Shown here in pieces: positions 2,472-61,352 of a stretch of DNA of 64,000 nt. Source of the DNA: Adenophora triphylla var. japonica (taxonomy: Eukaryota > Streptophyta > Magnoliopsida > Asterales > Campanulaceae); contig JAFEMH010000930.1 of assembly GCA_022495995.1 (NCBI GenBank), positions 189,001-253,000 of the forward strand, in the 5' to 3' direction. Each line of letters starts with the position of its first letter. The first letter of the stretch is position 1. The position numbers and the translations under genes were made by a program. Below the pieces are notes generated by a model, which was given only the letters and a program-made list of their open reading frames with translations, did not search any database and was not told the DNA's origin.

Positions 2472-3882
2472 TGAAATAGCCCGGATCCGAGCAGGCCTCG
2501 CGGCCCCGGCATCTGGCAGTCTTTCGCGTTGGCGGCGGTTTGTCTCGCCGTTTGTTTTTCGCATTTGTAGAGTCGCCACGCCGTTTTTATTAAGCCCAAA
2601 ACATTGAAAAGGGCATCGGTTTAAAGATAATTTTAAAGCTGTTTTTGTGTGATGAGATTTTTGAGTTCGGAGGTCGAGATGACTCCTCGGGAAGAGAATA
2701 TTAGAATATTAGAGCTCACCCGAGTAGCCTCGTAAAACGAGTCTTTCTGATACCCCTAATATCCTTTAAATGTGTGTGTGTGTGTGTGTGCTTTTAAAAA
2801 TGCATGTCAGATCGGATGTCTACATTGTATGCTATGTATGGAAATGTATTGAAATAGTAATGGAAGGAAGCCTTACCAATGTTGGTTCGTGTCTCTGTCT
2901 TCTCCGCTGGGAATAGTGTTTGAGGTCGGAGTAGCGTTCCCGCACGGACGGGATTGCTTCGGGAGATGACGGTTGTCTGCGGACGAGTTTCGGCGTGAGT
3001 TGAGGTTGCGGGATGCGTTCGGGCGTAGGTTCGGCGTGCGTGGGGATCGTCGGGATCACTCGGGCAGAGGTTCTGGCGTGCGTTGCTGGTGGCGGAGTCA
3101 CTCGGGCGCAGTTTCGCGTGGTTTGGGATCGCCGGTTTGACTCGGAAAGAGCCGGACACCGTGGAAAGACCAGGCAAGGCCTCGGAGTACCACGAGGGGC
3201 CTCGTGTAGTACCTCGAGAGTGCCTCGGCAGCGCGGGAGCGTCGCGGGAGCGCTCGGGAGGCTTCTGAGCACCACGAGGGCTCGGAAGGCCTCGGAAGGA
3301 TCCGAAAGGGGCGGGAATGCCTCGGAAGGACTTAGAGGGGAAGCCGAAGGCCTAGGGAGGAAGAGAGAAGTGGGAGGTGTGTGAAAATGAGGAGGGGGAG
3401 CCCTCTATTTATAGTGCGAGATTAGGTGCAAAGAGGTCCGTACGGACCTCCCCGGTAATCCGTGACTTTTGGTTTTCCTCGATTTGAGGGAATCTCGTGA
3501 TGATGGAGGAATATTTGCAATTATGGTGTCCCCTGAGCAATAAGGTCCGTACGGACCATCTTGCATGCAAAGAGGTCCGTACGGACCAACTCTGCAGGGG
3601 AGTAATCATTTTCCCCGGGATTTGAGGGAATATTGTGGACTTTAAGAAGATTCAGTAATTATGACAACAAAGAGGTCCGTACGGACCAATATTGCTTTCC
3701 CAATTTCCTGAAAATTCCCAAAAGGTCCTTTTGTCCCTTTTTATCCCAGAAAGGCTCCTCCCTTGGTTTGGTTGGGAGTTTAGAGAGGGTTTTGAGTGAG
3801 AGGGGTCATCAAGACTGTGTTGATGAGTCTGCGGTGTTTCCCGTGTGTTTGAAAGGGGGTGATCCAGATTGGGGTACTTACA
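2472..3882 (-). repeat. TE-A 5' LTR (1411 bp)
   Basis: Bounded by TG at 2472 and CA at 3882 (minus: TGTAAGTACCCC to TTTCA). The right end is fixed by the TE-B reading frame resuming at 3883, the left end by the primer site. It contains a (TG)n microsatellite (2773-2790), a minus-strand TATA box (3405-3414) and four copies of a GGTCCGTACGGACC palindrome. It shares a GAGTCGCCACGCCG block (2569-2582) with the LTR of TE-G and, with variation, TE-H, which marks these LTRs as relatives. Confidence 0.85.
3405..3687 (-). promoter_or_regulatory. TE-A LTR promoter: TATA box with four upstream palindromes
   Basis: The minus-strand TATA box CTATAAATAG lies at 3405-3414. Upstream of it (higher coordinates) are four GGTCCGTACGGACC palindromes: within 3433-3450 (extended to a perfect 18-bp palindrome), 3544-3557, 3574-3587 and 3674-3687. 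The first begins 18 bp from the TATA box. The dyad can be read as pentamers GTCCG and CGGAC separated by TA. Function is inferred from position only. Confidence 0.6.
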
Positions 3883-4557
3883 GCATCGGCAGTAGGAAGC
3901 CTAATGTATGCTCAAGTCTGTACTCGCCCAGATCTTGCCTTTATTGTTGGCATGCTTGGGCGATATCAAAGCAATCCGGGAAGAGAACATTGGGTCGCAG
4001 CCAAAAGAGTGATGAGATACTTACAAAACACGAAGAACTACATGCTTACATATACAAAGTCGGATCATCTTGAGATCATTGGTTTTTTCGATTCGACTTT
4101 CTTTGGATGCCAAGATAGTCGCAAATCGACATCGGGTTATGTCTTCACTTTGGCCGGTGGAGCGATATCTTGGAGAAGTGCCAAGCAAACATTAGTTACT
4201 ACTTCCACCATGGAAGCCGAATTTGTTGCTTGCTATGAGGCATCCAATCAAGCTATATGGCTGCGTAAATTCATTGAAGGACTGCGAATTGTCAAAGGTG
4301 TTGAAAGACCACTTAAGTTATATTGTGACAATCGGGCCGCGGTATTGTACTCCAACAACAACAAGAGTTCATCTAAATCTAAGCATATAGATATTAAGTT
4401 TCTTGTTGTGAGAGAAAGAGTACAAAATGAACAAATAGAAATAGAACTTATTGGTACAAACTCCATGTTAGCGGATTCATTTACTAAGGCGTTATCTCCT
4501 TTAGTATTTCACGAGCATGTTGCTCATATGGGTGTAATGACTTTTGATAATGCCTAA
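3883..4557 (+). pseudogene. TE-B Ty1/Copia RT tail and RNase H
   Basis: An open frame of 225 codons begins abruptly at the TE-A insertion point and ends with TAA at 4555-4557. It is the C-terminal end of a Copia polyprotein: the RT-RNase H connection with GSLMYAQVCTRPD, the RNase H Asp in FFDSTFFG, the STMEAEF motif with its catalytic Glu, the LYCDNRAA motif with its Asp, and the SKHIDIKF tail. RNase H removes the RNA template during reverse transcription. The remaining frame is clean, which suggests TE-B was fairly young when TE-A split it. The gag, protease, integrase and main RT lie beyond the left edge. Confidence 0.9.
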
Positions 4558-4925
4558 ATCAGTGGGAGTTTTAAATGTTTCTATTTTCTTGTGTTGTTTT
4601 CATTTAAATTGATCTCATTTGGTTAAAGTAGGACTAGTTGGAGAATATATATATGCATTCTTCATATATATTCATTAATTTTCCATGCTACATATCTATA
4701 CTTTATCTATGTCATTTAGTTGGATATATATATGTGATTAATGTGGGTTTAGTTGCGAATCAATTACAACGAATGCCCCTTTAGTCCTTATACTTATATG
4801 ACTAATGGACGGGATTGTTTTCGAATGACAACAAAGTGCACATAAGGGTTGTCATTTGTGTTATAAATATGATTGAAGAAATTTATTAAGTGAAGGTATA
4901 TGTTATAATAATCCAAGTGGGAGAT
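4558..4925 (+). other. TE-B 3' untranslated region and polypurine tract
   Basis: AT-rich 368-bp noncoding segment after the RNase H stop. The purine run AAGTGGGAGA at 4915-4924 directly before the LTR is the polypurine tract that primes plus-strand synthesis. A similar purine run at 4561-4568 may be a second tract. No gene seen. Confidence 0.75.
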
Positions 4926-5418: not shown

Positions 5419-5621
5419 AATAACTCATCAACCATCATCAGCTGTTGTGACAAACAGTCTTACGTATATCTCCATTTTCAAGGCACGATGGCAAAATCCA
5501 AACAAAATACATTAAAAATGAAAGTGATCATGAAATTAAAAGGGCAAAAAGACATTCCTTGGATGATAAATGAACAACTATTTTCATGTTTGATGATCTA
5601 ACTGTGCATTGAATTATGTAG

Positions 5622-20093: not shown

Positions 20094-20787
20094 TGTTGTG
20101 AAATTGGGGGGATCACCACATCCACTAGCCCATACTAGCAGTCATCAACATGGAGAAAAATAAATCAACACATGATAATATGAAAGAACAAGAACACCGA
20201 TAATTTGTGAACCCGGTTCACCACCACCCGTGGCTACATCCGGAGTCACCAAGCCAGGATATCACTATAATAATATATGAAGGATTACAACTTTACATAT
20301 GCACTCACACAGATCTAGCATAGTAACTCTCCATGAGCAATCTCTCATATATATTATCTAACCTCCCCGAGAACGTACAAATAACACAGTCATGGCCGGG
20401 TTGTAGGATCGCCCCCATGGCTCTCCTAGGCCCCCGACCCCCCTTCCTAGACACTATTTTGTGGCTCCCTTTGATATCCTAACTTTCTCCTCTTGGGTAC
20501 AAATATTATGGTGGTAGTCACAATGTATTTATAGAGATACAAAACCTACTCCTGATCAAAACCTAATTTACCCGGAGTCCTTGAGACGGAAGGAGTATAA
20601 TTTTAATTAGGAATGCTAATATTAATTTCATATGTGGACTCCTTTCCAGAAATCCGTCCCCGACAAACTGTTCCTTTGGGCGGTCGCCCACCTCCTCTAT
20701 GGGCGGTCGCCCACTTCAACAGTCGCTCCGATTTTCTGCTCCTCCATGGTTTTGATCCTCTCCTTGGTTTTGGCTCCAATCCCAACA
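20094..20787 (-). repeat. TE-D 3' LTR (694 bp)
   Basis: Plus-strand ends TGTTGTGAAATT and AATCCCAACA. It holds a minus-strand TATA box (plus TATTTATAG, 20526-20534) and two TGGGCGGTCGCCCA dyads upstream of it (20677-20690 and 20700-20713). Confidence 0.93.
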
Positions 20788-37737: not shown

Positions 37738-37773
<36 letters not shown>

Positions 37774-40289: not shown

Positions 40290-40500
40290 GTTAGCCCCTC
40301 AGCGACGTCTCCTCCGAAGGAGGTGGGGTCGTTGAAAAAGATAAGGATCCAAATCGGGATGCCTTACTTTGAAGGAGACCTATGCGGTCAGCTGGCTGGA
40401 CCCTAAGCGAAAAGGATTCCTACGTATCCCGAGCGGGAATCAAGCCGATCGTAGTTCGAAAAGGGGAAAGGGCCGCGCCTGGGGACCTTGACCTGAGCGA
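40290..40500 (-). other. TE-H polypurine tract and conserved CTACG stem-loop near the 3' LTR
   Basis: Minus GAGGGGCTAA next to the LTR is the polypurine tract. 40414-40458 holds the conserved block (plus strand GGATTCCTACG ... CGTAGTTCGA). The outer stem is CTACG with CGTAG, the inner TCCC with GGGA. TE-G has the same block at 61357-61403. No gene. Confidence 0.65.
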
Positions 40501-44760: not shown

Positions 44761-45253
44761 AAATTTTGATTTGAAATGTATTTGCAAAAAGGCGCCCGTG
44801 GGGCGAACTCCGTACTTCGCATATTTATTCTCGTGATCACCTTCGCTATTTTCGGCAAATAAGCAAATAGGTTAATCAAAAATAAATAAAAAGGAGAAAT
44901 GCATTAAAAATTGAACGGGTCAAAAATTAAGCATGTATGCACTAATTTTTAATTATTTGCACTTGTTGCACGAGCCCTGGAGGAAGGGATATTGTCATTT
45001 GTTGAATGAAATCGGGGCGAGGCACGCGAGATTTCATAAGAGTGAACAGGGCATGGTTTGGAAATGTTTCCAACTTTAAGGCAATGGCTGCAGAGTTGAC
45101 CAAGTCAATCGCAGAGGAGTCCTGGGACTAGAAATGAATTTCCGTTCTTTAAATTGCAGTTTCAAACTTTGCAATTTGTAAGAACCGCGCATTGCTTTTG
45201 CTCATTCCGCTCGAGTTCTTTTCCATTTCTTAAGGTTTTATTCATCTTCCGAC
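44761..45253. other. Spacer between the two antisense ORFs of TE-H
   Basis: AT-rich noncoding stretch; no gene or clear promoter dyad seen. Confidence 0.5.
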
Positions 45254-46755
45254 ATGGCTCCTTTTCCCAAGTTATCGTCTCGGATGCAAGAGCGATATTT
45301 GGACAACTTTCGCCGTGGGTACGGAACCACACGAGGCGTAACAAAAGGTTTTTCGAAGGTCATTACGGGATTAAATCTGTTTGGGCTTTGAAGGAGCTCA
45401 TGCCGATTGGGATCTTTTGAGAGCCGCGTCTCGGTTGCAGGACGTAAGGAGGAATGTGTACGGCTTTTCGTACAACGAAGTCACTCCTACGTTTGAAGAT
45501 TTCCGGGCCATTCTCGGGAGGACCTGAGACGGAATGCTAGTTCTTCCGTATGCTTTGGTGGCATGGCCACCGTTGAGAAGCTAGTGTCCTTGTTGGGTAT
45601 CTCATTTGGAGAAGCATACGGGATCTTGTCTGAGATACCGATTATGTTGATATTTTGGGATCGCCCGAAAGATTTGCCTGAGGCGAGGGAGCGTCTTTGC
45701 GTGGGACGCGTTTGCTCTGTGTGCGATTGCTACTCTGTTCACATTCACGTCTGCAGGTGTGTGCCATCACGTTGTGCTTGGACTGGTGAGGCGATGCGGA
45801 GTGGGGAGACATCGTGCCGCCGGTCTTGGGCGAGACGTTCCCGGGCATAGGCCGGATGGCGACCGGTAGCCGATACATGTGGGGAGGAGTCCCGCTATGC
45901 CGACCATGTGGTTGAGGGAGAGGCTGCAGATGATGCCCGAGGTGCCAATGTCCCGCGTGACGCTTGGTCTTTCTCGCGACGTCCTCTCGTGATAGGGGGT
46001 AATCGGGCCGAGCCGGAGCTCTGGATGGCGAGACTTGGCACGCATCACTTGCGATGGTGGGTTCCCCATTGGAAGTTCTGAGACTTGTAGGACCGCTCAG
46101 AGGGTGCATTGATCGTCGAGTGCCCGGGCCGTCTCGGACGTCTTTCTATATTCCATCATTGGTTCCGCGGCAAGACGGGCCGGAGCAGCATGCCACCGAT
46201 CGATCCGAGTTATGCCGCTACCTTTGAGGTGGGATCTCTCGCGGATGGAGGATCCTTCGACGCTATTGCTGGTCACCCTAAGTGGTGGCAATACACGTCC
46301 TTTCTTGCCGGGGTTCTCTTTCACCGGAGAGAGGGCACCGTTCCGTCGACGCAAAGATCTCGGACTCGGGGTACGAAGAGTGTATGGGGAGACACGAGAT
46401 GGCTATCTTGTGGAGACGGAGTGAGCCGTTGGGTGCGATCACACAAACTGGCTCGACATTGAGGAGGACAGAGGCGAGGGCTAACCACAGGAATCGTATC
46501 GGCGATGCCATGGCCGATTATGTGGCAAGTGCTGATCGGGAGGCCAATCAAAGCACTGCGATGATGGCTCGAAGCGAGGCGGCTCGAGACAGTAGCTAGA
46601 GAAAGGACTGCATTGACAGCCACGGGATTGACGGAGGCGTCGGGAAGAGTCCCCGAGACAGTAGAAGGCCTACGGAATATTTCCTGCGAAGGTGAAGAAC
46701 ACTCGCAGGGGAAAAGGGAAGGGGAAGAAGGATGAAGGACCTAGTACGAAACTAG
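45254..46755 (+). pseudogene. TE-H antisense ORF, DUF7745-like
   Basis: Starts near ATG 45254 (MAPFPKLSSRMQERYLDNF). It carries, in several frames, sequence parallel to the TE-F antisense ORF: RRNKRFFEGHYGIKSVWAL, YGFSYNEVTPTFEDFRAILG (45454-45522), a segment around 46020-46080 matching WMARLGTHQICWWVPHW, and a basic tail (GKGKGKKDEG) ending at about 46757. At least five frameshifts break it. It stands between the integrase and the PMD gene, on the strand opposite to pol. Function unknown. Confidence 0.65.
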
Positions 46756-47324
46756 GTTGACCTTGCTGTCCCAGTGTCCATCCATTGTCATTGCAGACAC
46801 ATTAATTGATTAATGTTTTATTGTAGTTTTGCTAGCGTGTAGCGAGTCAAGAGTTGACCGTGCTTGAACTCATCAAAGAATGTTTTAACCGTTATGAATT
46901 TGTAGGTTAAATGAAAAGAGTTTTTCGAAACACAAGCAATTGATGCTTATTGTATTTTTTTGTTTTTTTTTAGACCGAACCAATGATGGCTGCCTACGTT
47001 CCCCTTTTACAATTGGACTAAGGGGCTCAGGTCACCGTAGTTCGACACTTTAGGTGAATTTGAGAAAAACAAAGACAAAAGAAGTGCGACCTGCTTTTTA
47101 CCTGGATCATTAGCGGGAATGTATCCAGTTGGGTATTACTCTTTTAGCACTTTAATTTACTGAGGGGGACGGTGTATGGGGAAGGAGAGTTGACTCGTGC
47201 TCTTCCTCAAATGAAGTATCTGCGGAGCTTGCTTCCGTTCACGGGGTTAACGAAAGGGTTTCCGTCCAAGTCTGCTAGTTTGCGATGGCTCCTCCGGAGA
47301 AGATTCTTTGTACCACGAACGGTC
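46756..47324 (-). other. TE-H post-integrase noncoding segment with conserved stem-loop
   Basis: No gene. The minus strand of 46971-47045 reads TCGAACTACG ... GGGGAACGTAGGCAGCC ... GGTTCGGTCT, matching TE-F 34449-34521 in order and spacing. Outer stem CTACG/CGTAG and inner CCCC/GGGG. The two blocks of TE-H (here and 40414-40458) lie on either side of the antisense genes. Confidence 0.7.
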
Positions 47325-48560
47325 CTATCCAGTAGGCTCCCACATTCCGAGGGGATTGGCCGTAGGAGGCTTTTCCTTTAGCACCAAGTCACCTTCTCTG
47401 ATGTCTCGGATCTTGACTTTCTTGTCGAATGCTCGTGCCATTCTGCTCTGGTAGGCTCGAGTGTGTTCCATGGCTTTCAATCTGCGCTCGTCGAGTAGAG
47501 CAAGTTCGTCGTGACGGCTCTGTAGCCATTCAACTTCATTGATCCCGTTTTCCAAGAGGACTCGGAGGGATGGAATTTCTAATTCCACGGGTAACATCGC
47601 TTCCATTCCGTAGGTAAGTGCGAACGGAGTCTCCCCTGTGGCGGTTCGGCGATGTTCGGTATCCCCCAGAGGGCTAGATGTAGCTTTTCGGGCCGGTCCC
47701 GACCTGCGGTGGTCATCTTTCGATTATCATGGCGAGAGTCTTGTTGGGTGCCTCTACTGCACCATTGGTTTGTGGTACGTAAGGAGAAGACTTGTGACGT
47801 GTGACTAATTCGGTCAGTAGTTGGTCACAATCTCCTTCGAAGTGAGTCCCATTGTCGGAGATGATCTCGTTGGGCACTCCATATCGGCACATGATGTTCT
47901 CTCGGATGAACTCGGCCACCTTCCTAGAATTCAAGACCTTGTACGATGCGGCTTCTACCCATTTGGTGAAGTAGTCGATGCGACTAAAATGAACTCGTGA
48001 CCATTGCTCCCTGGAGGAGTGATCTTGCCGATGACGTCGATTCCCCATGTGGCGAAAGGCCATGGCGTAGTCATGCAGTAGAGTTCGTGAGGAGGGATGT
48101 GATTGAGGTTGGAAAACCGTTGGCATTTGTCGCAGCTTCGGACGAAACGGATGCGATGCTGTTTCCATTGATATCCAATAGTATCCCATACGGAGAATGA
48201 TGCGTGTCAATGCTCGGGCGTTCATGTGCGGACCGCGAGGTTCCGTTGTGAACTTCGTTCATTAGCTCGCTGGCTTTTCTTTGTTTACACACCGAAGGAG
48301 TGGCCCTTGGTGGCGCTTCTTGTACAACATACCCCCGTAATGACGAAATGGGATGCCGGGCGTTTTTAATGCCATCATGTTTTTGGCTTTGATCCCTTCT
48401 TTGTATTTTCCATCTTCATTTGTGAAGGAAGCTTCTCCGCTTTGGAGGTACTTGGTAAATTTGATTATACCGGGGTTCGTCGATCGTTTCTTTTCCTTTT
48501 TCAATCTCACAAAGAATAGGCGGGTGTTTCCCGTCCGCCTATTCTGAGGGGTTTCTTGCT
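47325..48560 (-). pseudogene. TE-H integrase
   Basis: 48560-48230 is the linker (LQSGEASFTNEDGKYKEG, LLRCVNKE). 48225-47713 holds the zinc region and core with ISDNGTHFEGD (second Asp) and GAVEAPNKTL (Glu). 47606-47325 holds the C-terminal domain (MEAMLPVELEIPSL, REGDLVLKEK). The part around the first Asp is in other frames near 48060-48030. Several frameshifts; non-functional. Confidence 0.82.
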
Positions 48561-50500
48561 TTCCCTTCGGGAATTTCGACAAGAGAGGCGAGGGTTGCCA
48601 GTGGCGCCTCGCGAAGCGGTTCTCGTCTCGGCAAATATTGAAAAGAGATGTCCTTGAGGCGAGCAATGAGCTCCTCCATGTACGCGTGGTACTTCGAAGG
48701 CCGGAATCTACCGTCTTCCATTTGTTGGATACTTGATTGATGATCAATGCCGAGTCTCCATATACATCCAACTCTAAGATGTTGCGCTCGAGGGCGGCTT
48801 CCAAACCTCGCGCACAAGCTTCATATTCTCGCCGCATTGTTGGTTGCTTCAAAATTCACTTGATGGCTATGGGAGTATGCTCGTCCTTGGGATCGACAAG
48901 GAGCATTCCAATGCCATTCCCCTTCTTGTTGGCTGCCCCATCGAAGAAGAGTTGCCGGCGGTTTGCGGCTGTCAAGTGAAAAGATTCCGTCGTCCGGAAA
49001 TTGCGGATCGACCCTTAGGTTCCATTGCTCGGGAAGTCGGCAAGCCGATTCGCCATTACTCTGCCCTTTGTTGATTTTCGACCATGTACTTGATGCTCGA
49101 ACTCGGCCGGGAAGAATGACCACTTGGCTAGCCGCATTGAGGGATGGCTTGTCAAAGAGATATCGGACGGGGTCCACTTTGGAGACCGGGAGCACCGAAT
49201 GCGGCCGCATGTAGTGTTTCGGTTTCCCGACTACCCATACCAAGGCGGTACGGGTTTTCTCTGATGCCGAGTAGCCGAGTTCACTTCCTTGAAGCTTTCG
49301 GCTTACGAAGTAGATTGCATGCTCAACCTTGGAATCTTTCTCTGTTCTTGTGCCAACATTGCTCCGATAGACGTGTACATTACATCGATACGGGAGTAGT
49401 GGCTTGTCTTCATGTGGCGGGCACGGGGTCGGGGGATTCACCAAGTAGGTCTTGATTTTCTCGAAAGCTTTTTGGCACTCGGAGTCCCATTTGATGTCGG
49501 CATTCTTTTTCATCGGTTTGAACATGGGCTCGCAGAGATGTCAACCTGGTTGATGAAGCGGCCGATGTGCTTGAAGTCTTCCCATGAAGCTCTTTACTTG
49601 TCAGGGGTTTGAGGCGGCTTCATGTCGATGATGGCCTTGATTTTCCTGGGATCGGCTTCGATACCTCTTTTACGTAACCATGTACCCCAGTACCTTGCCG
49701 CGCTTGACGCCGAAGGTGCACTTTGCCAGGTTTAGCCTCATGGAGTGTTTTCTCGAGTCCTGTTAAAGAACTTCCTCGGATCTCTCATGTGCTGCATGTT
49801 TGATCCCTTGGAGTGGATGATCATGTCGTTGACATATACTTCGATTTCTTTGTGAATCATGTCATGGAAGAGGGTCGGCAGCACGTGTAAGTAGCCCGCG
49901 TTCTTCGTACCGAACGGCATGGCCAGGTGCAACTTGATATGTCCCCCATGGAGTGGTGAAGGCGATCTTGGCACGATCCTCCTCGGACATCTTGATATGG
50001 TTGTATCCGGAAGAAACCCGTCCACGAAGGACTTTACTTCGAAATTCGCCGTGGTGTCGACCCGGCATGTCGATGTTAGGCGATGGGAAATCATCCTTAG
50101 GGCTGGCCTTGTTGAGATCCCGAAAATCCACGCGACATCGACCTTTCGTTGGCCTTGGTGACCGTCACGATGTTGGAGAGCCAAGTCGGGTACTCAATCA
50201 CTCGATGAAACCAACTCGGAGCATTTTCTCAATTTCTTCTTTAACTTGCAAGGACCACTCTGGCTTGATCTTGCGCGGCTTACATTTGACGAGGCTTGGA
50301 TTCGGGATCCAGGGGAATTCAGTGCTCTACGATCGAGGGATCGAGTCTGGCATGTCCTGATATGACCGGGCGAACACGTCCACATACTCCGGAGGAGGCT
50401 TATCGGGGCTTCCTTTTCTGCATCGGCGAAGAAACCGCCTACTTGTGTCTCTTTAGGCTCTTTGCACCGACCCCAGGTTCACTTTGGTCATAACCTCTTC
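48561..50500 (-). pseudogene. TE-H reverse transcriptase with two RNase H domains
   Basis: The RT begins at about 50490 (EYVDVFARSYQDMP near 50395), with VDFRDLNKASPKDDFPSP at 50130 and the catalytic motif at about 49835-49820, which reads YVNDM where YVDDM is expected, so the first Asp is Asn. The Gypsy RNase H follows from 49525 (KWDSECQKAFEKIKTYL). The second, plant-type RNase H, at about 48965-48640, shows FFDGAANKKGNGIG, MRREYEACARGLEAAL and VYGDSALIINQ. Many small frameshifts occur throughout. Confidence 0.83.
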
Positions 50501-51789
50501 GGCGGCTTGGGCCCGGTTGTCCTCTTGGTCAACTACACGCTCGAGAACTTCTCTAATGTATTGTTCGTTTAATGTGTACGCTTCTTTATCAATTGAATTA
50601 TTAACGTCTTTTAAGTTGTTTGTTAACTTATCGGTTGTTAAAGCGGCAATGAGAGGATACTCCGAAAGGTCGACTTTTCATTACACAAGAACGGGAATAC
50701 ATGATTGGCTACAACATTATAGTCCTCCTGGCGTAAGGCCGTTGGATGACTCGGAAGGGCCGGACTCGACAAGGTGACTCGAGAGGGTTTGAGACCGGGT
50801 TTAGGGAGATGTGGGTGCGGGCCCGGCTTGTCTTCCAGTCTGCACTGGCTTGCCCTTGGTCCGGTGAAAGTTACCCGATTCTTCGGTGGCATTCTTTGGA
50901 TGCTTCGAGGAGGGTGCGGGGATCGATAGGCTTGGCTCCTGCTGTCCCTATCATGGCGATCATGCTTTGTTGTCGGAGCCCCAGTCGATCAAATTGGGCA
51001 ACTCCATGACTTCTTCAAACGAGACTCAGTAGAAATTTCGGGTCCAGCCCTGAGAGCGTTTTCTATGAATTCCCGGTTCTTCGCTTTGGATTTCTTGTCT
51101 CGAATGTGGCCTCGGCGGCTGATCCGAACAATGTGTTTCCCATGGAGAGTACCTTGAGTTGCTCCTCCAAGTGCAGGATTCCCTTGAATGTGTACTCATC
51201 TTTGGACCGTGGTGGCGGTTGGTCCAGTAGAGCTGTGATGTCGAGGAACGCTCCCCTTATCGGATTAGCTTTGAGTCCTCTCGAAACGCTTGAGGTCCCG
51301 TGCTAGCCGTTCCATTACATGCTCGTAGTCTTGGTGTTTGACTATTCCTGCTTCTTTCTCATCTTCATCCAGTTCACCGTCGGTCCCCTCGGTTGTTTGT
51401 CGGTTCCCTTGTCGGTCCCCTCGGTTACGCTGTCCGGTTCCCTTGGTGAAGTAATGAGCGAGGTCAAAGCTGTAAGGTCGGAGGTGGGTGTGCCGTCGGA
51501 GGTTCCCCTTTTGCGGGGCTGCTGCCTTGGTGCGGGCGAGCCTTTTGTCTTCCTTGATGTCGGCCGGTGTTGGCACGTGGCCAAGCCCCTGGACCGTGGT
51601 GTGGTCCTTGACTTCAATAACTTGGTGCTGGCCTTGCGGCCTTTTGCCGAGCCCCGATCACGGGATGAAGTTCATGAGTTTCATCATCTTCATGGCGGGA
51701 GGAATCGATCGTGAGACAAAGTGGAAGGTCCACGTTACATATTTGGATCTTGGAGGTCTCGAGTGAATCCGGTTAATGGCATGTCATCA
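50501..51789 (-). other. TE-H protease-RT linker
   Basis: Minus-strand broken frames with no recognised domain. 51576-51265 encodes a charged Lys/Glu/Arg-rich stretch. This is the position of the linker in Tat polyproteins. Confidence 0.5.
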
Positions 51790-52300
51790 TTATGCTTGAT
51801 TTCCAATACTTGGAATGTCGTTGGTGCTGGTCCCCTCGGTGGTGACGCTCTCACCGTAGACTGTGGTTAGCTCATTGCCTTGCATGAACTTGAGGCACTG
51901 GTGAAGGGTGGATGCCACGCCATTGATCTGATGCAGCCAGGGACGCCCCAGGATGGCTGTGAAAGTGATTGGAATGTCCAACACTTGGAATTCGGTGGGG
52001 ATCACACGCTTGCCGAACCGAGATGTTAAGAGTAGCAACCCCAGGAACCGTACGGGAAGTAGAGTCATAGGCCTTGACAAAGTGTGGGTGAAGGCTTAAG
52101 ATGCAGTGGGCTTGATGTCAAGCGGGTCCATCATCTTGGCGGGCAAGACATTCATTCCGGAACCTCCGTCTACCAACACGCGGGGAAGGCGACGCTCGTC
52201 CACTGGGCTGTGATGTAAAGCGGCTCATTGTGATCAGCCCCAAATTTTGGAAGGTCCAAATCTGTGAAGGTGATAATGTTGCCATAGTGGATGTTACCAA
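51790..52300 (-). pseudogene. TE-H second protease-like core (PR-b)
   Basis: Retropepsin-like: upstream NIITFTDLDLPKFGADHN, active-site region VDGGSGMNVLP (about 52180-52148), then the body TEFQVLDIPITFTAILGRPWLH (to about 51920) in a shifted frame. Asp-Gly-Gly-Ser here replaces the usual Asp-Thr/Ser-Gly. It is related to PR-a at 54925-55518. This second core is the one whose upstream flank survives in TE-A. Confidence 0.7.
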
Positions 52301-54924
52301 TCATCCGAATGACTTCATCTGGGGTTGCGTCCACGGGGACCATGGTACGGGCCAGGCTTTCCTCTAGCTTAAGCTTGTGAGGATAAGAGGAGGTGAGCGA
52401 GACCAAAGGGAAATGTTTGCCTGAGTCCGCTTGAGCCGAGTGAGGATCGGGTCCTCTTTCAAGGAACTTGCGTCTTCGGGTGGCCGGACTGCAGTCGGCT
52501 CCGTCGGCTTTTGGTGGCCTTAGGTGGTAATGCATGGATTTGACCCGATCGGGTTAGAACGCCGACATCGGGTTTGGTCCCTTACGAACAGCCGCTCTGA
52601 GTTGAGCCATAGTTAGAGGAGGATTCCTCGTAGCATAGGGCCATATGTCTTCCCTCAACTCATTGATTGTGGATGAATTCACAGGAGCTTCGGCGGCTTG
52701 ACGGATTCTGTCCCGGATACCGGCTTAGGTGCCTCTGCGGGGAGGTAGCCTACGGTTTGACGTAGGCTGTTCGAATGTCGATGCACAACGGTGATTGCTG
52801 AGCGGGCGTGCGTTGCGACCCTCCTGGGGAGGTTGGAGAGTTCTCGGCTCAAGCGAACGGTCTCCTTGATCTCTTCACGGTATATCGCGTTCCTTTCCTT
52901 CTTGCTTGAGCATACTCGGGCGATGCAGGTTGGAGTGCAGCGATACTCGTGGTTGGCTAGTTTTCCTCCACTGGGCCCGTATCAACCTTCTTGCAGCGGA
53001 GCTGCGTCGAGAGTTAATGCCTGCGTTTCTTCCCATGTGAGAATAGCCGGTGCTTCTTTGAGCTGGCGTGCGGCAATCTAGGTAAACCTCCATTGGGGAG
53101 AGTTTTCTTCTCGCTTTATGCGAGTGGCGGGTATGTCGGAAGGTGAGTACACGGCTTCTCGAACATCCTGCCCATGTGGTAGTTCTTTGCCCAGTTGATC
53201 GTTTACGTAAATGAAAGGCCGTAGGCGTGGAATTTCCCGAGTAGTTGCTCGAGACGAATTTCCATCCTCCTCCTGTTTTTAAATAGACCTTCCTCCTTGA
53301 GTTGGCCTTTCAATTTGAGTGCGGTAATAATCCGTTCCCATCCTCCCAGGACCCTTGGGAGTCCGGTTTTGTTGACTTCATGCCCGGCTTGGAAGAGAAT
53401 CGATGCATCGTCTTCATCATCGCTTTCCTGAGAGAACTTGCTTTCCTCGGGAAGGTAAGCGGCGGGATTCGTTACCGTGTCTTTCCATCTCCTAGGTCAT
53501 CGGGACCGTTGACCACCCTCGCTGGCGAGAGGGGTTGGATGAGAACAAACGGTAGTCCGGAAAGTTGCCGTGAGCAAAACTCTTGAGGTCGAACTGGTCT
53601 AGAGTGGCCTCTAGCTTTCTGTCGAAGCCGCTGACACTTTAAGGGCTTGGTCCCCGTAGGTCTTTCGAGCTTGGTCTTCGTCCCAAAGACTGACTTTCTT
53701 GAGCGGCTAGTTCCATGAGAGCTTTCCTTGCGAGACCTAGGCGAGTCTCCGTAGGTGCGCATCGTCGGCTAGTGTCCGTAACCGTGATTACATTCAAATC
53801 GCCGAATGGTGGGAACACTTGGATTACATTGACGAAAGAAGTCGGGCCGGGACATTCCATGCGTCCTTCCTTAATCTCGATCACCAAGAAGTTTGCCCAT
53901 ATCGCTTGATTGACCCCACGGGGGTATTGAATTCCGCAATGTTGACGGTCTCGTGATCTCGCTCGATCGCCAAGTCTATCAAAGCTAGCGATCGATTGGC
54001 GGGATGTCGAATCCGGGGCCGTGACGGCGGGAGTAGAATCGAACTGAAGCATGTTGATGCTGAGGTGGTCATTTCTGTGTCGGAAGGCGACTCTGCCTTG
54101 CGGGGAAGACTTTCACGAGATGTTTTCGGGGTGGGCTGGTGGAAGCGTTCCCGAGGTTGATCTCGACTTGTAGCGGGGTGAGGAGCTTGGTCTCCTTTCT
54201 TTGTTTCCCTTGGCCTTGGCGGCGCTTGAGGGTATAAGCTTGACCGACGGCACGGGCCGCTTGTCGCTGGGCCGGTACTTGGAAGTAGTGATGAGCTCGA
54301 GCTCGCTTGGCCGGTGCCTCGTTTACCATGAGCGAGGCGATCATCGAGGGTGACCTTGGTGTTGCGGGAATCTGATAACAAGGACGGGATCCTTGGCTTC
54401 ATCAGATACTGGAATATATGATATTGACGAAGTCGTCGTCCTTTACTTGATCGAGAGGGATTCCTCGTTGCGTGAATCACATGCTTCCAATTATCGATAG
54501 CTATACATGTGGACGTTGAGCTTGACAATTTCCATGGTATTGGAACCTTGGTCGTAAGTGACCCGATCGGAAGGATTTCCGTCCTCAAAGCGAGCATGTG
54601 AATGCGGAGGTGCGCTTGCGGGTGCCGCGTCCTCGACTCCGGAGAGTCCAGATTCATCGTCATCTCCGATCGCTCAATCCAGTGTAGGGACGTATTGCGT
54701 CGGAGTTGCGTTAATTTGGAGCAGCTAGGAAAACATCATGCTCTTCGTTGGAGAAGAGGGGTGCAGCGGGTAGTTCCTCGTGGAGGACGTCCCATACGAC
54801 TTCCATGCATTCATCACGAGAATGGCGGTGCTTGTTGACCTTTATCACAAAGATCTCTTCGCCTGGCGGGGCCAGAGAGTTGGTTTGGAGAATGCTGACG
54901 AATCTCCGATTAGAGAGGCGGGGT
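52301..54924 (-). other. TE-H region between the two protease-like cores
   Basis: About 2.6 kb of degenerate minus-strand coding sequence without a recognised domain. 54941-54711 encodes an acidic segment (DECMEVVWDVLHEELP); 54052-53639 an uncharacterised frame. It may be a second gag-linker copy accompanying the duplicated protease. Confidence 0.45.
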
Positions 54925-55518
54925 TTATGTGCCCGTATCATGGCGATATTCGCCGTTTCCTTCCAATCTCGCCTCCAAGTGTTGGAAACGACAGGTTGAA
55001 CTTGATGTATCGGACCGCTTCGTGGTCCGCTTTCGCTCGAGTACGTTTACATAGTTAGCATCTCCTGACTCTGAGGGATTCTGATGAGATTTGCCCAGTA
55101 GTCCCTTGGTTGATTCGAAGGAGGTAACCCCGGTGCACGAGTGCGGACACGCTTGGCTCTTGTCTCGGCTTCGTTTCCTATGAGGAAAGCTTGTCCCTCG
55201 GATGACTTCAAGATCTCCCTGCCGGTTAATGAACTTGACGCACCGATGGAGAGTGGAAGCTATGGCTTTCATGTGGTGTAGCCAAGGGCGTCCCAAAAGG
55301 GCTGTGAACTCGGATGGAATGTCCATCACGTGGAATTTTCTTGGCACCATTTGGGTTTCGAACCAAAGTTCCAGAGTCCCCGTCCCCAGGCTGGGCCGAT
55401 CCGTGCTGTCGTATGCCTTGATAGTCCGAGTAGACGGTATCAAATGGCTTTCATGGATGCGGAGAGCTCGCATCATGCCGAGGGGGAGGACATTAACGGC
55501 TGACCCGTTATCTACCAA
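54925..55518 (-). pseudogene. TE-H first protease-like core (PR-a)
   Basis: Frame of 197 codons starting at the active site MVDNGSAVNVLPLGMM and continuing with IKAYDSTDRPSLG and RKFHVMDIPSEFTALLGRPW, then a linker. The active site Asp-Asn-Gly-Ser is a common plant variant position. The upstream part (ITFCDEDLPRDASGHN, about 55640-55590) is in another frame. It would process the gag-pol precursor. Confidence 0.75.
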
Positions 55519-56301
55519 TACTCCGGGGAGTGATATGGTGTTGAGTTTGAGAGTGATGTACGAGCTTCGTTGTGCCCCGAGGCATCTCTCGGTAGGTCTT
55601 CATCACAGAATGTGATCATGCTTTGCCATACAGCGGGAGTCATAGATCTCGTCTCTATCCGTAGAAGGAGAGTCATCCGGCCATCCGTTTCTGTCTTCCT
55701 CTTGCGAGGTAAAGCCTTTCTTTGGAACCTCGGGAGTATGTTGAGGCTGCTGTGGCGGTTGCCGCCCTTAGTTAGCACATTGATCGAGTGCGATTGCCAA
55801 GCCGACCTTGATCTTCCTTTACCGGTCCGAGCTCGGAAGCTGGACAAATTGAATCTTGGCTGATCCCGCGGAGGGTTAGGCTTACTGCGCAAGATTACCA
55901 AGATCCGAGGTATTCCGGTGTTCCGTGGTCTGAATTCTGGTTTTGGTGGGCTTTTCGGCTTTCCCACCCCTGTCTCGCTCTAGAGCCGCATGGCCCGGAG
56001 GCAAAGAGGACTGGCCGGAGTACAAGACGTAGTAGTCGAACCTCCCGGAGGGTTCTCCAAGTGTACCTACACCGGTGTCCCCAGCTTCGTATCTTTCTCT
56101 CGATTCTTTGTTGAGAGGATTTCTTCTTTGTTTTCTCGGAGGATTGCTCCGGACAGTTTCTCGGGACTCGTACTCCGAGCGAGCGGAGCGATAGCAAACA
56201 TCGTAGCCGATGTGGACATTAGAGGAGGATCCGGCGAAAGAGGCGGAGAAACTGGTTCTGTGGCACTCTTCTTGGGCACCCACTCAATGGAATTCACGCT
56301 G

Positions 56302-58107
56302 TTATTGTTCGGAAAGGGGTTTCCGGCGTATTGGGCCCACGGGGCGCTCCAACTTGCCTTCTTCTATCAAGTTACGGATTTCGTATCGTAACCCCAAACG
56401 GTTGTCGGTGGTATGGCCTTGATGCTGATGGAAGGCGCGATATTTGCTCTTGTCCGCATTGGCTACGGGAATTTTGGGTTTGTAATTGGCCACGGGCTTA
56501 AGGAGACCCTCCTTGATTAACCCTTCAAAGCATCTTGCTCGGTGGCATGTCTAACTTGTCGAAGTGTACGACAGTACGCTTCGAGTAGAATTGTTGCTTT
56601 GCGGGACTGGGTTTCGTTACCCGACGTTGTCCCTGATGGACGTAGTTGACAGACGTATCTTTCCCTTTACCGGGGGCCGGTGCATGATTGAATGAAGCTG
56701 TTGAGCGGTATCTGTATGGCTGTGCCGTAGCCAACTTTTCCTTGAGATCCTTCTCGAACTGTGAGCCGGCATTGACCATGGCCCGGAGATCTGGGAAGAA
56801 ATTGTGACTGATGAGAGTTCTGATGGACGGTCTCAAACAAGACTTGAAGATCCGCATCTGTTCGTCTTTGGAGAGTGGCTCCATGATTTCGGAGAGTTTC
56901 CAGCTCCATCTCTTGTAGAATTCCCCAACACTTTCATCCGCTTTCTGCTCAGTGGTGATTAAGTCCTCGCGACTTGTTTCCCACTCTAAGTTGGATCTGT
57001 ACCGTTCCAGGAAGATGTTACTGATCTGTTCCCAGGTGTGGCGATCCGCAGGTTGACCCTCGAAACCATCGTAACGCCTGAGCTTTTGAGCGTATCTTTG
57101 GAAGTGGTCGGCCATTTGCTGGAGGGTTGCTCCTTTTGCTCTCAGGCCGAGAACGTAAGTGTCGACGTGCGTTTGAGGACATTCGGTTCCATCGAATCGG
57201 TCCATCTCCGGCATTCTGAACATGGCGGGGAGAGGCGTGACCATTCCCGAATCAGTGGATTTGAGCGTTTCCTGCTTTGAGCTGCTCATGGTGGCTTTCA
57301 GGTCTTTCATCTGCTCGACCATCCAAGCTAAGGTTGGGTCCAGTGGTGGACTGTGAGGCTCGGCGCCGGGTGCTACCACGTGAGCGGTAGTGATTGGAGG
57401 TGGAAGGCTTGGTATATGAGAATATACGGGAGCCTTTTCTGGACTGTATCGGGGTTTGTCCCCGGTGTTTGTGTGGATTCGTGTATAGGCAACGGGACGA
57501 ACCCGGGAGGGTATTGAGGGATATTGGCATCCTGAGATGGTCCAGCCCGGTGCGCCGTGATATTGAGTGATGGGTGTAGCATGGGCTGACCAAAATTGAC
57601 GGGGTTGCCCTGAGAGGTGGCAACATGGAGCCTAGGTCATTTGTTTCCTTGGTTGGAAGGCATCTCGTAAGTTGGCGGGGAGGAACCACGATTGAAGGTT
57701 TGGTGAAACTGGTTTTGGGGAATCGTCATCCTCGACCAGGACAAAAGTACCGTCTGGCAGGGGATAGCCGCTATACCTCGCTCATTCGAAAGGCCGTACC
57801 ACGAAATTCCGCGATCTTCTTTCTGCCTCTTGTGAACCTCACAAGCCCGAATGGCTTCTTCCAATGTCATATCTGTTACCGGTGGCGGGGGTCCTTCCCC
57901 GTCACGATTTCTCGGTGAGCTGGACATGTCGAAAATTCTGGCCGAGGAACCGAGGGAACCGAAGAACCGTCCGACGCCGCCGTTACCGTGATCCCCGGCA
58001 AGGCGGCCGACCCGGAAATCGAACCACTTTACGCTCGGCAGGGAACGAAAGGAAGGGTTTAGGCTTCGGAAAAGGGTATTTGGCTCAAGGTTTTCGGGCT
58101 TGTGCAA
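56302..58107 (-). pseudogene. TE-H gag
   Basis: The N-terminal frame 58107-57637 has PPPVTDMTLEEAIRACEVHK; a Pro-rich middle (57582-57373) contains NIPQYPPGFVPLP. The core frame 57379-56525 (284 codons) holds DRFDGTECPQTHVDTYV, ISNIFLERYRSNLEWETS and SVGEFYKRWSWKLSEIM, typical Retrotrans_gag. At 56493-56302, KYRAFHQHQGHTTDNRLG is a CHHC-type knuckle in which both Cys positions are Arg, so zinc binding is lost. The gag core is the least damaged coding region of TE-H. Confidence 0.85.
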
Positions 58108-59226
58108 TGTGCAGTTACCGATTAAAGTTTACTTAAAGCGCGCTTTCTCAGAGTCCTAATTGGTTGGAAAAGAGCGTGTCTTCTTTTTCGCAACTAATCC
58201 TAGAGCTCTAATCAGTGGATCTCGTCACTACGCTTATAAGCCCCTCGTTTCCATTGTAGATCATCTTTCTCAAGACGGACTATCCCGAGCGAGGTCTGAT
58301 AAGGCAAGCGAGTTCCACCGACAAAGGAAAAAGTGAACTTAAGGCTAGCTGATCACGCAAACTTTCGACGTGTGCGGCGTACGGGCCACGGTCGAGGTCA
58401 ACGTCCTTAAGTTAAGGCGGGAGTCGTGCCAAAATTTGGGCATGACCTCTCCTGACTCGCTTGTGCGAGAGACCTTTAGATTTTAGCATTGGCCAAGTTG
58501 TGGCTGGCACGGTACATACGGCGAGGTTTGGTGAAATGGTGTCACATTGAACCTTCGGGTATATTTTTCGGCAGAGCTCCGCGTCAAAGTCAAGGCTGAA
58601 AAGCTCAAGACTTCGGGTCGGGAACGACCTTTGGTCTCAAACTCTCGAGCCTGACTCAGAGCGGGGCCCGGCGTAAAAAACATACACTTAGGCTTTATGA
58701 CACGAGCTAGGCCAAAAACCAACCGGGGTCTTGGACAAAGTGTGACACAAAGAGTGCATGGCTTACACGGGCTAGGATGGGATGTTTGGGACGACCCCGT
58801 GCGCCCCCGAAAGGTGTATGGCAGACCAATCGGAGTGCAACTGATAAGGCCATCCCGGGTTAGGGGTTGTAGTGTGCAGTGTACCGAGGCAGCAAGTGCA
58901 CGTGAAGTGCGGTGTTCCGAGGCAGCAAGTGCGCGTAGTGTGCGGTCACTAAAATTCTTTTTTTTTTCTGAGTAAAACAGAGATTTTTCAGAATGTGTCT
59001 TAAAGAATTTATGATGCACAGCTTCAAAGACAAAGATGAAAATCAAACATGAATGGGGATGCACAAACATGGTATGATTTTGGAAAGTTGACAATGTAAT
59101 GCCTTTTGAAAAAACCGTTCGAGGTTTAAAGTAACACACACACACGAGAACGAGGAAGGGTAAACGAAAGTTTGACCCACGGAAGGCTTTTTAGAAAACA
59201 TTGGCAGTTTTGAAAAAAGTATCTTT
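58108..59226 (-). other. TE-H untranslated leader
   Basis: No gene. Homologous to the TE-A leader, with about two copies of the CCGAGGCAGCA repeat at 58871-58947. Confidence 0.65.
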
Positions 59227-59244
59227 TCCCCAGCGGAGTCGCCA
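59227..59244 (-). promoter_or_regulatory. TE-H primer-binding site, tRNA-Arg type
   Basis: Same sequence as in TE-A (minus TGGCGACTCCGCTGGGGA), two bases from the LTR end at 59247. Confidence 0.9.
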
Positions 59245-59246
59245 AC

Positions 59247-61352
59247 TGAAATTACCCGGGCTCGCGCGATGCGAAGGCGGTTGTCTTTCGCGGGGTGTTG
59301 GTGTCTGAGACCTCGCTTCATGGGAAGGAACAAAATGAGGAGTCGCCACGCGGTTTTTGTATTTTGAGCCCAAACGTTGAGAAACGGCTATTGTGAAAAG
59401 GTGTCATTTTTATTGGTAGCAAAAACTTAGGAAAAGGCTTTTTTTGAAAAAGGGGATCATTTTTATTGGCAGCAAAAACGAGTAAAAAGCTTTTTAGTAC
59501 CAGAGATTGTTAGGTTCGGAGGTCAAGTTACGTTTCGGGTAGAGTATGACGAGATCGCCCGAAACGCCTCGCATGACGAGTCTTTCTACCTTTCTCGAAA
59601 TCGTGTGTGTGTGTGTCTTTTGAAATGGGGGCTTGAATGACAAGCTTAATCTTGGTTTGAGTGACAAACGTTGATTAGGTGACTTTTGAAAAGACGAGCG
59701 TTTGAATGACAAACGTCGGTTTGGGTTTGAAATGAGCGTTTGCGTGGCAAACGTCGACTTTGAGCTTGAAATGACCGTTTGCGTGGCAAACGTCGATTTT
59801 GAGTTTGAAATGAGCGTTTGCGTGGCAAACGTCGATTTTGAGTTTGAAAAGGAGTTCGAAGGTCGAACTCCGGTTTTTTGAACCGAGAATGTCATTGTTA
59901 ACGATTTTTACGGGAAAAATGCGTATTAAATGATTTTAAGTGTCACATGGCGGCTTTTAGTTTAAAGATGAGCGTTTGGAGGCCAAACGTCATTTCACGC
60001 GTTTTGAAAGAGAGTTCGACAGACGAACTCCGGTTTTGAACTGGGCATTACATTGTTAACGATTTTTACGAGAAAAATGCGTATTAAATGATATGCGATC
60101 AACGAATCGGGTTGCGACTCGGACTTTTGAAAAGTAAATACTATCACAATCCAAACGGATCGGACTTGTAAATGACAGTATTTAAAGCGGTGTCAACGGA
60201 ATCAAACGATCCGGATTCGTAAATGACGATCAACGAGGCCAAACGGCTCGGAATTGTAAATGACGATCAACGAGGCCAAACGGCTCGGAATTGTAAATGA
60301 CGATCAACGAGACCAAACGGCTCGGAATTGTAAATGACGATCAACGAGGCCAAACGGCTCGGAATTGTAAATGACATGAAAGTAAACGGAACGGGGTCGG
60401 AACGCCGTTTTAACCCGTGATTACTTCTCTTACGGAAAGAGAAGAGGATCGAGGGGATAAAACGTATCGGACCCCCAGATTAGGCAGAGAAAGGCGTCTA
60501 CATTTTGATAACGACGTCCGAAACAGTTATAGCGACTGGCGCGTAAACCGAGACGGAACGGAAGATTCAGAGAGAGGGAGTTATACCTATGGCTAGGGTC
60601 GACTCCTTTGGCTCGAGAGGTGTGCACGGGACACGGAAAGTTATTCGAAAGGTTGTTTCGAAGTTGTAGGGTGCGTATTTGATCGAAATACGAAGGTTTC
60701 ACGCGAATCGAGATAAAACGGGAGCTCGGGAGGGGTGAAAACCAGTTTGGACCTTGGGGTATGTGATTTTTTGGTGTTAAAAATCCTCCCTTTCTTTGCC
60801 TTTGACAGCAACTTCTATTTATAGGGTGAAAATTGCAGTAGGAGTCCGGCCGGACTTGACCGAATTTCGTGGGTTTTTGGGGATTTTGGAAATCTGGGAG
60901 ACTTGCGCAATTTCGGGAAAAGTGCACAGTGAGTCCGTAGGACTTGGCTTGCAAACCAGGGGCATTTTGGTCTTTTGGCCTTGATTTGTGATTGACGAGT
61001 GACTAGAGGGAGGTGGCATGCAGGACACGTGTCCTGTGACTCACCAGAAGTGTGGGAGTTCGTTCCCCGGTCCCGATTTTGTCCGTTTTTTAAAATAACA
61101 GTCCGGGAAATGTCCGAAACGCCCCCGGAAAGTGCCGGAAAATGCATTTTTCAGGGAAAGCCATACTTTTACGTGAGATATCACGTGCTAAGTACGGTTC
61201 GACGTCGAGATGCACGGGCGGTCCTGGACGTCTCGTTGGCACGGCACAAAGAACGGGAGTTTAACGAGTTTCGGTTAACCTGGAGCGGGCCAGTTAACGG
61301 ATTTCTGTTAACTTTCTGACGGATTTGGACGATCCGGATTTGGGTACTTACA
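59247..61352 (-). repeat. TE-H 5' LTR (2106 bp)
   Basis: Same ends as the 3' copy. It has three copies of the 39-bp unit (59720-59850) where the 3' LTR has four, and four copies of the 37-bp unit (about 60226-60373) where the 3' LTR has two, plus a shorter (TG)n run (59604-59617). The TATA box is at 60815-60824 and the dyad at 60843-60856. Confidence 0.95.

Follow-up and report, generated by a model that had tools for sequence, protein, structure and literature searches.

The window analyzed here, a 64,000-nucleotide stretch of Adenophora triphylla var. japonica (contig JAFEMH010000930.1, positions 189,001 to 253,000), contains long terminal repeat (LTR) retrotransposons in which short CpG-bearing inverted repeats, here termed dyads, recur both in the LTRs and in front of internal genes, where they probably serve as operators. 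A dyad consists of two 5-bp arms that carry CG on their inner sides and are separated by 2 bp (NNNCG-N2-CGNNN). These dyads are real and occur far above chance. All of those named in the initial annotation were present in the families to which it had assigned them (TE-A, TE-H, TE-G, TE-D, and a block at 31.8 to 33.1 kb), and their positions in the window are as follows.

3436..3447, minus strand: TE-A dyad GTCCGTACGGAC; TATAAATA (3406-3413, also on the minus strand) is 22 bp away
3545, 3575, and 3675 (3545..3686), minus strand: dyads 2 to 4 of the TE-A LTR, GTCCGTACGGAC; 3545 and 3575 spaced 30 bp
20678 and 20701 (20678..20712), minus strand: dyad pair GGGCGGTCGCCC of the TE-D LTR, 23 bp apart and 144 bp from TATA (20526-20533)
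21439, 21461, 21511, and 21534 (21439..21545), minus strand: TE-D internal array of two dyad pairs with a 72-bp period, between the LTRs
22483 and 22506 (22483..22517), minus strand: dyad pair GGGCGGTCGCCC of the second TE-D LTR
32122 and 32232 (32122..32244), plus strand: odd-centred variant GCACG-N3-CGTGC, 107 bp from TATAAATA at 32352
36756, 37191, 37933, and 62296: exact TE-G dyads TGTCG-N2-CGACA
36789 and 37890: TE-G dyads with one mismatch
39785..39796, minus strand: TE-H 3' LTR dyad GTCCGGCCGGAC, 20 bp from TATA (39757-39764)
41850..41861, plus strand: TE-H dyad GTCCGGTCGGAC upstream of the antisense PMD-type gene, with an AT run 21 bp downstream
60844..60855, minus strand: TE-H 5' LTR dyad GTCCGGCCGGAC, 20 bp from TATA (60816-60823)
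62296..62307, plus strand: TE-G dyad TGTCGTCCGACA upstream of the antisense PMD gene, with an AT run 19 bp downstream

Abundance, spacing, and conservation of the dyads

Besides the window, the material comprised 20 stretches of 10 kb picked blind (L009-L028, forming a 200-kb sample), targeted pieces of contig C1 (L029-L030 and L034-L053), and small loci (L001-L008 and L031-L033), and genome-wide pattern counts were made on the 2.48-Gb assembly. The pieces of C1 fall into seven sets, i.e., A, two AGCCG sets, H, and three TGTCG sets (T1 to T3), all of which were chosen from single-pattern lists.

Exact NNNCG-N2-CGNNN dyads were counted and compared with 100 shuffled versions, for which dinucleotides were permuted within 1-kb pieces. 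The window yielded 23 of them versus 2.6 ± 1.6 in the shuffled sequences (maximum, 8), and the blind sample yielded 26 versus 4.5 ± 2.0 (maximum, 10), such that the excess over shuffled sequence anticipated in the initial annotation was recovered in both. Dyads with spacers of 1, 3, and 4 bp stayed within the shuffled range, numbering 3, 6, and 3 in the window and 8, 7, and 7 in the sample. At spacer 9, the sample has 19 dyads versus 26 at spacer 2, and 10 of these 19 came from a CGACGG repeat. When similar flanks were linked into clusters over the window and the sample, 21 clusters were obtained at spacer 2 versus 6 to 12 at each of 13 other spacers. Arms that the sample added to those of the window are GCACG, AGCCG, ATCCG, GGTCG, GAGCG, and TCTCG, of which the single-copy ones may be due to chance. 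The CGACGG/CCGTCG inverted repeats (L020 8134-8630, L021 5213-5540, and L026 3179-8990) belong to a separate repeat family and supply about half of the spacer-8 plus spacer-9 counts of the sample (16 of 31 by our own count).

The same picture was obtained on the scale of the genome, in which GTCCG-N2-CGGAC occurs at 75,174 sites, TGTCG-N2-CGACA at 37,097, and AGCCG-N2-CGGCT at 17,225, versus 631, 718, and 962 sites for the respective reversed patterns. The hybrid GTCCG-N2-CGACA, in which both CpGs are kept, was found 648 times (313 + 335), which is 57 and 116 times below its two parents, and the unused symmetric arm CATCG, again with both CpGs kept, 408 times (one such arm was tried). Chance and CpG content were therefore ruled out as the source of the dyads by the shuffles together with the hybrid and CATCG controls. 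In the genome-wide spacer comparison, which covers the GTCCG arm, 84,557 GTCCG...CGGAC pairs were counted at spacers 0 to 12; 89% of them have spacer 2, and the 12 other spacers share 9,383, or about 780 each. The three arms thus add up to 129,496 exact sites in one genome, which would make them a large store of ready-made promoter elements. The arms are not strictly family specific as had been claimed, since GTCCG is common to TE-A and TE-H, and GGGCG is common to the short TE-D and the element on L025.

Conservation was examined with the window TE-A LTR (3370-3885) as the reference. Of six copies tried, L001 could not be aligned, and the alignment of L024 was limited to 119 bp. Dyad CpGs were kept in 34 of 34 cases in the five aligned copies, compared with 15 of 36 for the other CpGs of the LTR (Fisher P = 1.7e-8); other bases were kept in 1855 of 2029 cases. 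Furthermore, TE-A and L014 can be aligned in their proximal promoters (score, 46 versus 25 for the best of 200 shuffles), and at this homologous promoter both arms are GTCCG in TE-A and AGCCG in L014, the outermost letters of the left arm lying just outside the local alignment.

The CG-inner arms and the 2-bp spacer of the proposed layout were confirmed, but the half-site is longer than 5 bp, and the block at 31.8 to 33.1 kb deviates in having a 3-bp spacer, which makes it an odd-centred 13-mer. Among 44 nonredundant sites, flanking bases are complementary in 31 at ±1, in 12 to 18 at ±2 to ±5, in 16 to 23 at ±6 to ±10, and in 8 to 15 beyond, while 25 of 88 half-sites have GC at −8 versus 0 to 10 at other offsets. 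Because the symmetry reaches about ±10 and GC is favored at −8, the half-site probably spans some 13 bp, in which the outer GC and the inner CG are separated by one turn of the helix. Where same-arm dyads lie within 60 bp of each other, 21 of 22 pairs are 22 to 23, 30 to 33, or 40 bp apart, and the other is 50 bp apart (family copies included, overlapping loci dropped); this is suggestive of helical phasing and no more than suggestive, since many pairs copy one arrangement. On L034 (280-461, in T1), one dyad is part of a longer palindrome, GGCTTGTTATGTCG-TG-CGACATAACAAGCC, which measures about 30 bp, and three dyads are 85 bp apart.

Promoter geometry and accessory genes

Distances to the TATA box run from the last base of the 12-mer to the first base of TATAAATA. 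This gap is 22 to 23 bp in the A, AGCCG, T1, and T2 LTRs, 18 to 20 bp in H, and 22 bp in TE-G, where it refers to the imperfect copy at 37890. In 9 of the 10 LTR sites tallied, which do not include the T3 LTR, TATA lies 18 to 23 bp from the dyad, and the tenth, that of TE-G, reads 22 bp. Gaps of 18, 18, and 21 bp had been given for TE-A, TE-H, and TE-G; the values that we measured are 22, 20, and 22 bp. Proximity to TATA holds for these three families but not for TE-D or the block at 31.8 to 33.1 kb, in which the nearest dyads are 144 and 107 bp away.

TE-A, TE-G, and TE-H belong to the gypsy type and carry accessory genes (PMD and DUF7745-like) in antisense orientation. The parts of the window that belong to the nested TE-G and TE-H are listed below.

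36613..38230, minus strand: left part of TE-G, colinear with L049 10-1600; LTR dyads at 36756, 37191, 37890 (one mismatch), and 37933; TATA at 37860-37867
38233..61352, minus strand: TE-H, 23,120 bp, inserted in TE-G, with GAAGA at both flanks
42011..43490, plus strand: TE-H antisense PMD-type gene, exon 1 from ATG 42011 (by eye), broken exon 42801-43490
48821-49525, minus strand: TE-H RNase H (RT_RNaseH_2 match)
56525-57379, minus strand: TE-H gag (Retrotrans_gag match)
61348..62580, minus strand: right part of TE-G, past the TE-H insertion; 61348-61772 is colinear with L049 1594-2013, and 62198-62580 with L049 2213-2599
62456..63557, plus strand: TE-G antisense PMD gene, exon 1 from ATG 62456 (by eye, splicing presumed), PMD exon 62859-63557 (PF10536, E value of 2.6e-13)

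In TE-H, the stretch 50037-49145 on the minus strand is similar to a gypsy-type reverse transcriptase (28 to 30% identity), and the broken PMD-type exon has 3 stops and 31% identity to the PMD exon of TE-G. The insertion point of TE-H lies about 120 bp (by eye) inside the 3' LTR end of TE-G, and L049 represents the uninterrupted arrangement. DUF7745-like genes were found in the window (35344), on L010, L012, L014, and L029, and elsewhere. Their name is a loose one, since the Pfam matches to DUF7745 (E values of 2.8e-4 and 0.0026) fall short of the cut-off, and one of the proteins also shows a weak PMD match. A PDB sequence search gave no match to the DUF7745-like protein up to an E value of 1, and a protein database search returned two relatives of it and none of the PMD exon.

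By tblastn, nine PMD or DUF7745-like genes were identified in the window and the blind sample. Five of them have a dyad 160 to 206 bp upstream of the gene start or the first aligned residue, which is exact in three cases (62296, 41850, and L010 5595) and carries one mismatch in two (L012 and L014). For the three genes with a plausible ATG (62456, 42011, and L029 4463), the distance from the dyad start to this ATG is 160, 161, and 162 bp, respectively. The accessory-gene box is mostly AT rich rather than a TATA, and an AT run of at least 6 begins 18 to 26 bp from the dyad in 10 of 15 accessory sites (shuffled mean, 2.1; maximum, 8; 2000 shuffles). Exceptions include the A PMD site (run at 37 bp), L042 (none), and the T3 PMD site (17 bp). 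A pairing of the DUF gene at 35347-36357 with the dyad at 36756 (−410) was rejected: this dyad belongs to the oppositely oriented TE-G LTR, which leaves the gene without an assigned arm.

In elements that were not picked by arm and have both sites readable, the arm of the LTR equals that of the accessory promoter in 4 of 4 cases, i.e., in TE-G, TE-H, L010, and L014, the last two taken as single elements from the order and strand of LTR and gene. The arms of LTR and internal array also agree in 2 of 2 cases, L025, whose LTR was identified by eye, and TE-D. The nested pair illustrates the rule: the host TE-G carries TGTCG and the guest TE-H GTCCG, each at its own LTR and its own PMD promoter. 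Assignment of the dyad at 62296 by proximity would pair it with the TE-H LTR (60844), a mismatch, and its assignment by element pairs it with the TE-G LTR, a match. All seven C1 sets have dyads in their LTRs as well as in front of accessory genes; since the pieces were picked from single-pattern lists, arm agreement there is by selection and only the positions count. The PMD exon of the A and AGCCG sets lies about 1.1 kb from the dyad or beyond the piece, such that their PMD promoters are presumptive, and no accessory gene was seen on two of the C1 pieces (L036 and L051).

The TE-A copy on C1 (L029 and L030) has LTR pieces that are 97% alike over 862 bp, with their dyads 14.8 kb apart, together with an internal dyad pair and an Integrase_H2C2 match on the minus strand (L029). 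TE-D contains no open reading frame (ORF) of 200 amino acids, and its primer-site letters are, by eye, of the Met tRNA type. The L025 element, presumably Athila-like, combines a gypsy-type integrase and a sense Transposase_32 ORF with GGGCG dyads. Its GGGCG-type dyad-pair arrays (8006-8340 and 4348-4540; period of about 73 bp), in which many copies have decayed, are located upstream of the Transposase_32 ORF and in the presumed LTR. L011 and L019 have copia-type domains on the same stretch as dyads, such that some dyads may reside in a Sirevirus (Ty1/copia) host.

Candidate readers of the dyads

We reasoned that the dyads are operators for a predicted dimeric factor, which would co-activate all promoters of an element, and we put the probability of this at about 0.8 on the basis of their layout, symmetry, enrichment, position, arm identity, and CpG retention. 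In the proposed mechanism, a protein dimer would sit on the dyad, each half-site taking one of its monomers, at about 20 bp ahead of TATA or an AT box. Each element would employ one arm at its LTR promoter and at its accessory-gene promoters, which in the gypsy-type families are those of the PMD and DUF7745-like genes on the antisense strand and in the L025 element that of the sense Transposase_32 ORF. With one arm at all promoters of an element, a single trans-acting activator would drive genomic RNA and accessory genes together. Four points are inference on our part: binding by a protein, its dimeric state, activation as opposed to repression, and the promoter nature of the accessory-gene sites. 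The suggestion in the initial annotation that a DNA-binding factor reads the arms is in line with the fixed spacer (genome-wide for GTCCG), the arm symmetry, the TATA distance, the CpG retention, and the re-use of dyads at other promoters. The CpGs might in addition make such binding methylation sensitive, as was also suggested there.

Several observations weigh against such operators. Three of the nine accessory genes (L027, L021, and window 45375) have no dyad within 700 bp upstream, and two TRP28 ORFs have no convincing upstream dyad (one imperfect at −518, one decayed at −571). The exact dyad of the T3 LTR (L049 1295) is 64 bp from TATA, with a decayed dyad in between, and at the T2 and T3 DUF promoters the AT run begins at 45 bp and TATA is 47 to 48 bp away. 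The window of 18 to 26 bp for AT runs was fixed after the LTR distances were known, and related families, such as the two AGCCG sets, are not independent in the geometry tally. In addition, four of the five aligned TE-A copies had been chosen for an exact dyad; upon removal of one dyad per such copy, 26 of 26 dyad CpGs are still kept (Fisher P = 3e-7). In TE-A, the LTR dyad pair and the DUF-promoter pair have 55 bp in common at 89%, and hence a recent duplication would also explain the arm match of this element. Finally, LTRs with several dyads fold well as RNA.

The last two points lead to the rivals in which no protein is involved. The palindromes might act as RNA, forming hairpins that regulate genomic RNA or feed small-RNA silencing, the role proposed for palindromes of maize Sireviruses (Bousios 2016, as described in PMC10760457). 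Seven of eight stretches fold better than their shuffles (z of −2.4 to −9.2). The dyads find their pairing partners in neighboring dyads, which for the TE-H LTR means a decayed copy at a distance of about 90 bp. However, the lone-dyad stretch at 62240-62389 gave a z of only −1.5, and a loop of 2 bases would not allow an isolated dyad to form a hairpin. Nor would a constant distance to TATA or an AT box, or spacer 2 in 89% of GTCCG pairs, be expected of an RNA stem. Folding proves nothing either way about a small-RNA role, because repeated palindromes are always able to pair, and we regard an RNA function as improbable. It is more improbable still that the dyads have no function and were copied within elements and spread with successful families. 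The 55-bp module of TE-A speaks for such copying. Against it stand the dyad CpGs kept without loss while most other CpGs of the LTR changed, and the four AGCCG elements, which retain their arm (two of them with one mismatch) although their DUF7745-like proteins are 28 to 54% identical in five of six pairs and 82% in the sixth.

If the dyads are operators, their reader could be of host or of element origin, and the host is slightly ahead. A host transcription factor family whose paralogs differ in specificity, and on whose sites unrelated elements converge, falls just short of an even chance in our judgment. Such a factor would account for GGGCG pairs 22 to 23 bp apart in both L025 and TE-D, and for the GTCCG arm common to TE-A and TE-H, whose DUF7745-like proteins are only 27 to 34% identical. 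The capture of host sites does not, however, require that related elements differ in arm, as they do. That no plant factor is known to us to bind a 12-bp site of this layout also counts against a host reader; GTAC, presumably the SPL core, is contained in TE-A alone.

Alternatively, the PMD and/or DUF7745-like genes may encode the dyad-binding activator and thereby form an autoregulatory circuit, a possibility that we hold tentatively and with less conviction. Dyads are found both upstream of these genes and in the LTR, and the tree of DUF7745-like proteins matches the arm classes, AGCCG and TGTCG each forming one clade and GTCCG two lines. The tree has 12 rows, 10 of them with an arm label (the 36357 gene and W45405 have none, and L021, with 66 residues, was excluded); it requires two arm changes in all, and 0 of 200 shuffles were as low. 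Such a match is nevertheless expected from common descent alone, and for single classes 29 (GTCCG), 7 (AGCCG), and 54 (TGTCG) of 500 shuffles were as low. Two of five computable pairs gave dN/dS values of 0.08 and 0.16 (the others, 0.41, 0.52, and 0.70), and one PMD pair was saturated. The best-scoring 150 of 44,672 PMD exon candidates, including that of the window, are all at least 89% identical, and 126 of these 150 have no stops by our own count. Moreover, the host relatives MAIN and MAIL1 are needed to express genes with a promoter motif, according to the parts of PMC7156037 and PMC9899485 compared here. On the other hand, GTCCG serves two distant DUF clades, GGGCG occurs in unrelated elements, and TE-D has no such gene, although a factor supplied in trans could act on it. 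Pfam searches revealed no DNA-binding domain, and the AlphaFold model of the DUF7745-like protein was uninformative (pLDDT of 39; 3 sequences).

Taken a step further, Tat/Retand-like elements might encode their own activator (PMD and/or DUF7745-like) that binds NNNCG-N2-CGNNN at all their promoters, with lineages insulated by joint changes of arm triplet and protein. This would be a plant counterpart of foamy virus Tas, with MAIN and MAIL1 descended from such activators. As a whole, we consider this proposal speculative and rather unlikely. If the factor is element encoded, it would help to explain why a PMD protein came to be domesticated for the control of gene expression. Whoever the reader may be, the matched operator at LTR and accessory genes should render accessory-gene function directly testable by a search for the reader of the arm triplet.

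Relation to known systems

Among known systems, the dyads are closest to the RM boxes of Sireviruses, yet they are distinct from them. In the sections of Bousios et al. 2010 (PMC2829016) compared here, RM boxes are element-specific, repeated CpG palindromes that lie in the upper LTR ahead of a conserved TATA, and additional copies precede the accessory ENV gene; they are reported to be specific to Sireviruses (Ty1/copia), 12 of 13 elements having a CGG-CCG core, and their spacers vary. The dyads likewise are repeated palindromes upstream of the LTR TATA with extra copies upstream of accessory genes. They are set apart because core, spacer rule, and host lineage differ: their core is CG-N2-CG (CCG-N2-CGG in GTCCG and AGCCG, no CGG in TGTCG) with spacer 2, and A and H are of the gypsy type, as indicated by gag, RNase H, and reverse transcriptase in TE-H and Integrase_H2C2 in the TE-A copy on L029. 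The accessory genes here are, moreover, antisense. Between the two GCACG-N3-CGTGC sites, decayed copies are present (32122-32359), and this form is nearer to the Sirevirus motifs with a 1-base center.

The architecture of the elements recalls Retand and Grande, for which the descriptions compared (PMC11963269 and PMC7264820) report a long region between pol and the 3' LTR with antisense accessory ORFs and tandem repeats, a Grande gene23 with its own promoter and a nuclear product, and a TRP28 domain in the antisense ORF of 97% of Retand clusters. Antisense accessory ORFs between pol and the 3' LTR are found here as well (gag and reverse transcriptase on the minus and PMD on the plus strand in TE-H; integrase on the minus and DUF on the plus strand in L029), and the gene strand is opposite to the LTR TATA strand also in G, L010, L014, and T2. 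It is on this architecture that we would call the lineage Tat/Retand-like. Unlike Retand, PMD and DUF7745-like genes take the place of TRP28, and the TRP28 ORF at 16213-17895 belongs to another element of the window. An operator common to LTR and accessory promoter does not appear in those descriptions, which present the function of antisense accessory genes in giant plant retrotransposons as an open question.

The internal promoter of foamy viruses is in sense orientation and drives accessory genes. According to the portions of PMC8670036 and PMC4929722 compared, one activator, Tas, acts on both the LTR promoter and this internal promoter. The circuit proposed here is similar in that one predicted activator would serve LTR and internal promoters; it differs in that the elements belong to another group and that the accessory promoters of A, G, and H are antisense. 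As outlined in PMC7156037 and PMC9899485, the PMD proteins MAIN, MAIL1, and PP7L are required for expression of genes with the DOWN motif, whose direct recognition is only proposed there; that motif (CATGCAGTTT in MORC1) is unlike the dyad.

Heat-shock elements are nGAAn arrays, and thus the comparison with ONSEN drawn in the initial annotation holds as a general likeness but goes no closer. The inverted repeats of auxin response elements (TGTC, IR7/8) have 7 to 8 bp between hexamers, unlike the TGTCG arms here, which are 2 bp apart. Six dyad 12-mers searched literally in the open-access literature were not met with in plant-retrotransposon papers, as judged by title and start of abstract, and a search for palindrome, U3, and CpG in the same literature gave no report of such dyads in the text that it covered.

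Tandem repeats lie between the 3' LTR and the antisense gene at 61445-62169 (about 65 bp), 41186-41553 (about 34 bp), and 42407-42704 (about 37 bp), the last inside the presumed intron; Retand elements are reported to have such repeats as well. Just inside the 3' LTR, the A, G, and H families have a segment in common (40394-40458, 61357-61403, L010 3451, and L029 1029-1075 and 1189-1249), which contains a dyad-like core TCCCGAGCGGGA (window 40427 and L010 3451) and is possibly a structured RNA or a priming signal.

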